Shown here one piece after another: positions 26,942-32,071 of a stretch of DNA of 33,788 nt; positions within the stretch are counted from its first letter, which is position 1; each line of letters opens with the position of its first letter. The translations under genes were made by a program, and so were the position numbers. Below the pieces are notes generated by a model. The model saw only the letters and a list, made by a program, of their open reading frames with translations. It searched no databases and was not told the DNA's origin. Source of the DNA: Candidatus Niyogibacteria bacterium RIFCSPLOWO2_12_FULL_41_13 (GTDB lineage: Bacteria; Patescibacteriota; Minisyncoccia; 2-12-FULL-41-13); contig MHMS01000002.1 of the NCBI GenBank assembly GCA_001821615.1, positions 1,102 through 34,889 on the forward strand. The letters are read 5' to 3'.

Positions 26942-27012
26942 CGAAACACATAAATTATTTATGTGCTCGGGTCGGCATTTTACCAAGCGCATAAAATAAA
27001 TTATGTGCTCGG
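26942..27012 (-). repeat. Duplicated hairpin in intron 2
   Basis: Two similar imperfect hairpins, 26942-26970 and 26985-27012, each ending TTATGTGCTCGG on the plus strand. They lie between the R and S elements, i.e. in the P8/P3 region, and look like a local duplication. Confidence 0.5.
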
Positions 27013-27028
27013 TCTGATCTAAAAATAT

Positions 27029-27640
27029 TTAGATCAAGTCTCTACGGGGTACAAATACTGATTTTTGTAATCTTAATGAATATGGATAAATTAAAGAAAG
27101 AAATTTATGTGTTTCTAATCTAGAAAAATACAGACAAAAAGTTTTTGCGCTCCGATAATTGTAGATTTTCATTTTCTTAAAACCTAGCGAATTCATTAAC
27201 ATTAAATCTTTTTGCGCTTCCTTTAAATTGCTATAAACAATGCGGCAGTCGCGATAAAAGTCCTTCGCGACTGAACCGTCTCCGTCAAATCTTCCAGCCA
27301 TATAAGGAAAAATCATATCTTTGCTGATGAATTTCAGTATATTATTTTTGAACTCCCTAAACTTTCTTAACAATGGACGGCTATTTACATAGAGATGATA
27401 TGCTTTTGTGCGCCTTTTAAATTTATCTGGGAGATAAATTCGCAATTTTAACCTTTCTGTTGGCAAAAATTTCAAGAAAAATTCTTCAAATTTTTTTATT
27501 AAATCAACTTTGGTATTGCTAATCCCAATACTGCTTGTCCGATGATAACCATCAGCGCACCATAATCCTACAATGTAAGCGTCGTCTTTTGTTTTAAGAT
27601 TCCAAAAATCAGTATTTATACTTCCCACGGTATTACCCAT
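27029..27640 (-). CDS. Two-motif LAGLIDADG homing endonuclease, intron 2
   Basis: 203 residues, two LAGLIDADG helices: 'YIVGLWCADGYHR' near the N-terminus and 'YMAGRFDGDGSV' in the middle, so a monomeric enzyme with pseudo-dyad symmetry. Basic strands such as 'FKRRTKAYHLYVN' would contact DNA. The start codon ATGGGTAATACC lies in the P4/P5 sequence of the ribozyme, and the last codons (VPRRDLI) are read from the R element CCCCGTAGAGACT, so coding and catalytic RNA overlap at both ends. The ORF is intact. Confidence 0.9.
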   Translation of the reverse strand: MGNTVGSINTDFWNLKTKDDAYIVGLWCADGYHRTSSIGISNTKVDLIKKFEEFFLKFLPTERLKLRIYLPDKFKRRTKAYHLYVNSRPLLRKFREFKNNILKFISKDMIFPYMAGRFDGDGSVAKDFYRDCRIVYSNLKEAQKDLMLMNSLGFKKMKIYNYRSAKTFCLYFSRLETHKFLSLIYPYSLRLQKSVFVPRRDLI

Positions 27641-27895
27641 ACATAAATTTTAACATAAATGTATTAGGGTTCCACCGTTATGAGCCGATTTCTCCGTCCA
27701 CCAACTGGCGGATCAGAGGGTGCCACTCTGCCTCTGGCAGAGAGTCGATAAAATCAACCATGCAGCACCTGTGCCGGCGTCCTTGTGAGACATCCGCCTT
27801 TCAGCGGACTTCACCGGCATTTCAAGTCCTGGTAAGGTTCTTCGTTCGTCATCGAATTAAACCGCATGTTCCACCGCTTGTGCGAGTCCCCGTCT

Positions 27896-27927
<32 letters not shown>

Positions 27928-28028
27928 TCCCAGGCGGCAGACTTAACGCGTTAGCTTCGCCACTCGAAGGGTCGATACTTCAAATAGCTAGTCTGCATCG
28001 TTTAGGGCGTGGAATACAAGGGTATCTA

Positions 28029-31243: not shown

Positions 31244-31389
31244 ATTAAATATCGGATTTTAATAAAATTTATAATCGTAATCGACCAATTCTTGCCCGCA
31301 AAAGGCAAGCTAATAAATTCTTGATTGCAGAAGTTATTGTTTATTCTATTAAATCTAATCCGGCATAGTCAATAAAGTTTTCCACATTT

Positions 31390-31480
31390 ACCCCGTTAGA
31401 GAATGCCAAGCGGCTTGCCGCCGGGTCTGGCTCAATACGAGCGCGGGGTCCAGTGCCCCGCGCTCGTTCTCTAACGGGGT
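31390..31480. repeat. GC-rich nested palindrome (three-way-junction shape)
   Basis: Outer stem ACCCCGTTAGAGAA (31390-31403) with TTCTCTAACGGGGT (31467-31480), 14 bp perfect. Inside are a hairpin CGAGCGCGGGG/CCCCGCGCTCG (31438-31448/31456-31466) and a middle arm with GCGGC/GCCGC. Much more GC-rich than the surroundings. It ends one base before the mpg stop codon and may also act as its terminator. The rest of 31244-31389 holds nothing I recognise. Confidence 0.7.
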
Positions 31481-32071
31481 TTACTTGAATTTGGAAACGA
31501 ATTCGCTGTTTTTGAGCCAAAATCGCCAATGAATTTTTGACCAACGCGGGCCGGCGTAATCAATGCCGATTCTCGGCCCTTTTGCGATTTGAGAAGGTTT
31601 AATTTTCTCTCCCCCGTCTTCCAGCCAAATTCTGCTTGATTTAACCGTATCTTCGCCGTAAAAAGATTTGTCAAACTTGAAATATCCGCACAATTTCCCC
31701 GGCCCATTCGCTTTGTTTAAGTATCTTGTATTTAGTATCTTGTATTTAGTATTTACAACTGGCTCAACAGCGCGGATTAACACGCACTCTGGTTTGCCTT
31801 CTTTATAAGTTGAGATATTAAATTGCCAGTGCATTCCGTAAACCAAATAAATATAAATATGGCCGCCTTTTAAAAATTCAGCGCGGTTTCGCGCCGTTTG
31901 CTTTCCGCCGTAAGCGTGGCTCGCTTTATCTTTTGGTCCGACATACGCTTCGGTTTCAACAATCTTGCCGACGATTTTTCCGCCGCGGTATTTCCTAACC
32001 AAATATTTTCCCAATAAATTTTTCGCAACTTTTAGTGTCGACTGGAGAAAAAAATCTCTTTTAAGCTTCAT
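31481..32071 (-). CDS. mpg: 3-methyladenine DNA glycosylase (MPG/AAG family)
   Basis: 196 residues. Family motifs: 'LGKYLVRKYRGG', 'IVETEAYVGPKDKASHAYGG', 'HIYIYLVYGMHWQFNIST', 'CVLIRAVEP' and 'NGPGKLCGYF'. It removes alkylated bases in base-excision repair. Between 'AVEPV' and 'NGPGKL' is an insertion NTKYKILNTRYLNKA encoded by an AT-rich tandem repeat (31719-31755) of the same type found between rplU and cutA. A TAAAAT hexamer at 32081-32086 lies 9 nt before the ATG; no Shine-Dalgarno site. The gene is in frame and otherwise complete. Confidence 0.92.
   Translation of the reverse strand: MKLKRDFFLQSTLKVAKNLLGKYLVRKYRGGKIVGKIVETEAYVGPKDKASHAYGGKQTARNRAEFLKGGHIYIYLVYGMHWQFNISTYKEGKPECVLIRAVEPVVNTKYKILNTRYLNKANGPGKLCGYFKFDKSFYGEDTVKSSRIWLEDGGEKIKPSQIAKGPRIGIDYAGPRWSKIHWRFWLKNSEFVSKFK
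31719..31755. repeat. In-frame AGTATYT/TGTATYT repeat inside mpg
   Basis: Plus strand GTATCTTGTATTTAGTATCT and continuing TGTATTTAGTATTT; period 7-8 nt. Encodes the KYKILNTRYLN insertion in Mpg. Confidence 0.75.

Follow-up and report, generated by a model that had tools for sequence, protein, structure and literature searches.

A palindrome at the mpg stop codon of a Patescibacteria genome as a MITE-like element that shares its ends with a GIY-YIG nuclease unit

A GC-rich nested palindrome lies directly 3' of the mpg gene in the window, the whole 33,788-nucleotide stretch of Candidatus Niyogibacteria bacterium RIFCSPLOWO2_12_FULL_41_13 analysed here, and raises the question of what it is and how it came to occupy this position. 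The preliminary description of this DNA had offered three readings: a mobile palindromic element, a structured RNA or a terminator for mpg. The architecture that it reported was borne out. A 14-bp outer stem (ACCCCGTTAGAGAA/TTCTCTAACGGGGT, positions 31390-31403 paired with 31467-31480) encloses a middle arm at about 31405-31431 and an 11-bp GC-rich hairpin (CGAGCGCGGGG/CCCCGCGCTCG, 31438-31448 paired with 31456-31466). RNA and DNA folds place the first inner arm at 31405-31431 of the plus strand, where a GCCA/TGGC base carries a GCGGC-TT-GCCGC hairpin (31410-31421), and the second, which contains the 11-bp hairpin, at 31437-31467 of the same strand, so that the basal stem and two arms form a three-way junction. 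The RNA fold reached -61.4 kcal/mol (z = -6.9) and the DNA fold a z of -7.35, with none of 200 shuffles folding as well in either case.

Direct copies of TTTA bracket an 89-bp unit at 31391-31479, delimited by the sequence itself, a census of its own genome and alignment A3; its assignment to the plus strand is arbitrary and was set to match related copies in that alignment. The layout is TTTA, CCCCGTTAGAGAA ... TTCTCTAACGGGG, TTTA, in which the left (31391-31403, plus strand) and right (31467-31479, minus strand; given here as read on the plus strand) terminal inverted repeats (TIRs) are 13 bp long and perfect. The left TTTA copy occupies 31387-31390, scored as exact when the own genome was surveyed, and the right copy 31480-31483; the 4-bp register of this target site duplication was fixed on 50 units. 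Base pair 14 of the outer stem belongs to these flanking repeats and lies outside the mobile unit. No gene is present within the 89 bp. The methylpurine-DNA glycosylase gene mpg (31481-32071, minus strand; PF02245, E 9.2e-58) lies outside the element, and the TTA of the right TTTA (31481-31483) is its stop codon TAA. Because the right copy contains this stop codon, mpg was left undamaged by the insertion.

The search for further copies that the preliminary description had proposed covered 561.9 of the 562.4 kb of the genome, stitched from regions. The 14-mer of the outer stem was confined to the window palindrome, yet the 10-bp core CCCCGTTAGA occurred exactly 33 times, nearly always as facing pairs, and the palindrome is not a single occurrence. 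The genome contains 17 TIR-bounded units of 61-280 bp. Across the class, 384 genomes were scanned with a strict pattern, which found units in 70 of them; the same pattern reversed, as a control, gave none. The TIRs of the family span 13 bp, a length set by the within-copy matching of end positions, and consist of YCCCGTTAGA followed by three bases that vary between copies and match within one copy.

Identical 4-bp flanks were present in 35 of 50 distinct units, compared with a mean of 5.8 and a maximum of 14 when the right flanks were shuffled in 2,000 trials; the same 50 units showed no excess of 3-bp, 6-bp or 7-bp matches. The most frequent target sites among them were TTCA, TCAA, TTTA, TAAA and TGAA. 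The family therefore appears, from these flanks, to insert into TNNA-like sites (TTTA, TTCA/TGAA, TAAA, TCAA) and to duplicate 4 bp. Many short units adjoin gene starts or stops. The subfamily of the window unit favours TTTA/TAAA targets, which accounts for its location at the mpg stop codon.

Several further observations concern the make-up of the units. One unit of 79 bp with its own CTTG duplication is nested inside another with a TTTG duplication (locus L286). One pair of nested units, whose inner units measure 128 and 68 bp, recurs in genome G112 (L276 and L279), as if the composite had moved or been duplicated. In genome G115 (units at 219734, 243569, 245067, 357213, 503089, 541809 and 629966), a length of exactly 100 bp is common, even though several interiors are different; in other genomes unit lengths cluster near 80 or 100 bp. 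These lengths suggest a constraint on length, not on sequence. tRNA genes were seen between the same TIRs at L061:1644-1753 of the own genome (G000:C16:6643-6752), identified by ARAGORN as tRNA-Ala CGC, and at G115:235348-235452 and G115:255549-255653, two sequences that were read by eye as tRNA-like. Unlike the other units, these three carry no matching 4-bp duplication.

Empty sites were found for related copies; for the window copy itself, the nearest genomes compared are class-level relatives. When the flanks of a 71-bp unit of genome G319 (L009) were joined, they aligned without a gap over 500 columns to its congener G123, with a single TAAA, and also to G005, with TAAA at the junction. 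Uninterrupted congener loci with less exact junctions were found for a 280-bp GIY-YIG unit of the kind described below (L132) and for two short units (L012, L014); the junctions of L132 and L014 were ragged, and the alignments of L013 and L139 stopped short of the junction. The tRNA-carrying pairs of two genomes, with no matching duplications, count against the explanation preferred below. Collectively, the TIRs, 4-bp duplications, dispersed copies and empty sites mark the window palindrome, as judged from sequence, as a transposition product that is MITE-like, and mobility of the family is well supported by the same comparisons. The mobile element of the preliminary description is thus the reading that prevailed.

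The only protein-coding unit found with the ends of the window element is about 280 bp long, and its sole gene encodes a UPF0213/YhbQ-like GIY-YIG nuclease of 84-95 amino acids across the family. In the own genome, this unit is one of the 17 (C6:44078-44357); it spans 280 bp, is flanked by a CTCA duplication and encodes a protein of 84 residues (PF01541, E 1.5e-18). Relatives of this protein were present in 306 of the 384 class genomes, with up to 14 per genome. Among the best 30 GIY-YIG loci, 15 passed a strict test of TIRs and duplication (12-bp inverted ends with at most one mismatch and an exact 4-bp duplication), and in most of the others these ends were also seen, but the duplication was altered or the locus reached the edge of a contig. 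A similar test was passed by 13 of the next 40 loci and by 12 of 800 controls with mis-paired flanks. DNA identity between units at different places was approximately limited to the unit and reached 96.8% within one genome. As read from the locus alignments, these units often lie at ATGAA start codons, where the terminal A of the unit and TGAA rebuild ATGAA.

In an independent named collection, loci of at least about 60% identity nearly all had CCCGTTAGA-like ends, mostly 274-285 bp apart, and were carried by Daviesbacteria, Terrybacteria, Zambryskibacteria, Ryanbacteria, Wildermuthbacteria, Levybacteria, Nomurabacteria, Kazan, Uhrbacteria and others. Across all 80 loci of this collection, 14 to 20 percent met the strict test (script count 14; controls 15 of 800), a low rate because the distant half has other or imperfect ends. 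The active-site residues Y5, Y16, G18, R26, H30 and E62 were kept in 70-72 of 72 copies, and the gene therefore appears, on this conservation, to be under selection to cut. Together with the PF01541 profile, these residues place the coding partner, which lies outside the window, in the GIY-YIG superfamily. No relatives were confirmed in viral contigs at the sensitivity of that search.

More distant GIY-YIG genes (L312, L315, L316, L319, L322, L330, L358, L361) are bounded by ends of a different, imperfect kind (such as CCCCGTAGTGAAAATTC), frequently accompanied by TATG/CATA on each side, and probably represent sister families. Relatives in Verrucomicrobia (L333, L348, L350, L368) adjoin a different palindrome (GCGTAAAAGCTT...), and a similar association of GIY-YIG gene and palindrome may exist outside Patescibacteria. 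Two GIY-YIG genes between CCCGTTAGA-like ends were found in bins labelled Candidatus Scalindua and Bordetella parapertussis (L309, L311); these are likely mis-binned contigs, transfer being the alternative.

The short units and the GIY-YIG unit have in common their end bases (the first base being C or T), their TIR length and their 4-bp duplication, and beyond these ends the interiors of the short units are unrelated to the coding unit. A GIY-YIG match was present in 67 of 70 genomes with short units and in 239 of 314 without (p = 6e-5, hand tally). Taken with the evidence for mobility, these results make it likely that window positions 31391-31479 belong, as a non-autonomous, MITE-like copy, to a minimal transposon family found in Patescibacteria, with the ~280-bp GIY-YIG unit acting in trans. 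The enzyme so supplied and responsible for mobilisation is, we infer, the GIY-YIG protein.

Chief among the rivals is a conventional MITE, mobilised in trans by a DDE-type transposase that is encoded elsewhere, with the GIY-YIG gene as a passenger or homing-type helper that uses the same ends. Perfect TIRs with a target duplication of fixed length are the classical sign of DDE transposition. Moreover, three genomes with short units have no small GIY-YIG gene, which counts against the GIY-YIG link and in favour of this rival: G333, with several short units, lacked any GIY-YIG match, and in G305 and G293 a single hit per genome fell in a long frame comparable in size to UvrC. An IS1595-type transposase was present in G293. 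Against it, in a survey that comprised DDE_Tnp_1 and IS1595-type transposases, the former were absent from 11 of 11 carrier genomes and the latter from 9 of 11, and neither was found in the own genome. Within such ends, GIY-YIG was the sole protein gene detected in the own genome and in 800 of the 923 kb of G115, accompanied only by tRNA genes, and in many families the ~280-bp unit is taken up by the GIY-YIG gene. A DDE transposase acting in trans is, on this balance, rather unlikely, and the trans action of the GIY-YIG unit is the reading that we prefer.

A REP/BIME-type palindrome moved through single-stranded DNA by a RAYT (Y1 transposase) would also give dispersed GC-rich palindromes, and the own genome contains two Y1_Tnp genes. 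However, a 4-bp target duplication, as is present here, is not expected of Y1 transposition, and no CCCGTTAG was found within 1.5 kb of either Y1 gene. On these two grounds, the REP/RAYT explanation was rejected as very improbable.

The fold of the element is conserved among its relatives. Across 11 units closely related to that of the window, pairing holds in 94% of the cells of the three stems. In 13 cells both sides had changed, compared with 4.2 in shuffles, a figure that is not a probability, the 11 sequences being akin; sliding the partners abolished this pattern. Two-sided changes were seen in 2 of 5 pairs of the hairpin of the first inner arm and in 6 of 10 pairs of that of the second, and the covariation that the preliminary description had proposed to look for was thereby found. 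A compact class of 61-71 bp has a near-constant layout of a 13-bp stem, one base, a hairpin usually of 7 bp, one or two bases and a second stacked hairpin. Its first hairpin has as few as 3 of 17 letters in common between copies of one genome, and pairs in 42 of 42 cells (shuffle maximum 35). TIR positions 11-13, which vary between copies, match within a copy in 16 of 16 cases in the own genome (3.5 expected) and in 19 of 22 in G115 (7.4 expected), where position 14 matches near chance. Since the ends match each other and not a fixed sequence, they may pair as one folded strand. Alternatively, both the compensatory changes and the matching ends could come from arm-copying mutation rather than from selection.

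These compensatory changes, and the many copies against gene starts or stops, would also be in keeping with a structured RNA under selection at numerous loci, as a small RNA or a cis-regulator, with mobility incidental. Such an RNA would not be expected to have interiors that differ so widely between copies, or to lie, in two thirds of contexts, beside genes of no common function, and one unit is inserted within an otherwise continuous, alignable locus. Rfam gave no match at gathering score at the window locus or at five related loci, and a known RNA family was rejected on this basis. Of the structured RNA of the preliminary description, the conserved fold stands, while action as an RNA gained no support, and we regard this explanation as very improbable. 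An intrinsic terminator of mpg, for which the GC-rich stem directly 3' of the stop codon speaks, was dismissed as scarcely credible. A T-run is missing from both sides, an absence that the preliminary description had itself noticed; stems of this length are far beyond the usual, comparable units are found at the starts of genes, and the TTTA/TAAA target explains the position.

Returning to a GIY-YIG unit acting in trans, a mechanism can be proposed. Both TIRs on one strand would pair to form the basal stem, as a hairpin or cruciform, and the inner arms would complete a compact three-way junction and so keep the element ends together. The GIY-YIG nuclease would cut the base of the paired-TIR stem and cleave a TNNA target with a 4-nt stagger; host repair would then fill in the 4-bp duplication and complete the joining. 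In the window, the insertion would have struck a TTTA over the mpg stop codon. We infer the folded strand as substrate and the host repair step; all steps after cutting are conjectural. Branched DNA is a known substrate of some GIY-YIG enzymes, SLX1 among them. To our knowledge, no GIY-YIG enzyme performs transposition, and we know of no strand-transfer activity among them. It is therefore a tentative proposal, to which we give somewhat less than even weight, that transposition of a TIR/TSD transposon is catalysed by a lone nuclease of about 85 residues, which acts on folded ends and depends on host repair, with the window palindrome as a parasite of this transposon and the three-way-junction fold as the substrate form that the nuclease reads.

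If this is correct, few known autonomous transposons would be as small as the 280-bp unit, the stems of the three-way junction would be free to change in sequence but not in shape, and transposition would join homing and repair among the roles of this nuclease family. Patescibacteria genomes are very small, yet relatives of the GIY-YIG gene are present in most of the sampled class; if these genes drive 280-bp transposons, many poorly explained genes and intergenic palindromes would have one explanation.

Among known systems, insertions in the rRNA genes of CPR bacteria are similar in that some bear GIY-YIG proteins and others are short and ORF-less. All GIY-YIG proteins in those genes were found in insertions that match neither intron type and seem to be outside homing, and the uncharacterised ORF-less insertions were mostly shorter than 200 bp (PMC11270868). 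That paper makes no mention of inverted repeats; these insertions may be the same elements as the family described here. In the window itself, the 16S rRNA gene is interrupted at 26945-27932 by roughly 1 kb of inserted DNA with a gene for a LAGLIDADG protein (27029-27640 on the minus strand; PF14528, E 2e-8), an intron-type insert like those reported for CPR rRNA genes. By sequence, the nearest solved structure to the nuclease of the coding unit is a UPF0213/YhbQ-type small GIY-YIG protein (1zg2, BH0048; E 6.6e-5), and the match to SLX1 was not significant (E 0.37). We know of no mobile role for UPF0213/YhbQ-type proteins. In the literature searched, whose coverage excluded bioRxiv and most subscription papers, no description was found of GIY-YIG units with TIRs and target duplications.

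REP/RAYT elements are likewise dispersed, imperfect GC-rich palindromes near gene ends, whereas the window family has 4-bp target duplications and no linkage to Y1 genes. Integron attC sites resemble the family in a conserved fold with variable sequence and in the core letters GTTAGA/TCTAAC. However, the core sites face the opposite way (GTTAGA ... TCTAAC here, RYYYAAC ... GTTRRRY in attC) and the window unit has a target duplication; an attC site was rejected on the order of these cores. The closest comparison is with bacterial MITEs, of which Correia/NEMIS and RUP are further examples. MITEs such as MITEAba12 (PMC6382973) are similarly short non-coding units with TIRs, a fixed-length duplication, many copies and a coding relative with the same ends. 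The window unit has these features, being short and gene-free with TIRs, a 4-bp duplication and dispersed copies, the empty sites belonging to other copies, and by structure it is a MITE. It differs in that the sole protein-coding unit with the same ends, in the place of an autonomous element, holds a GIY-YIG nuclease of putative transposase activity and no recognised transposase, and in that interiors vary widely while the fold is kept, in units down to 61 bp. The family thus looks like a new variant of these elements, and possibly a new kind if the GIY-YIG nuclease is the transposition enzyme.
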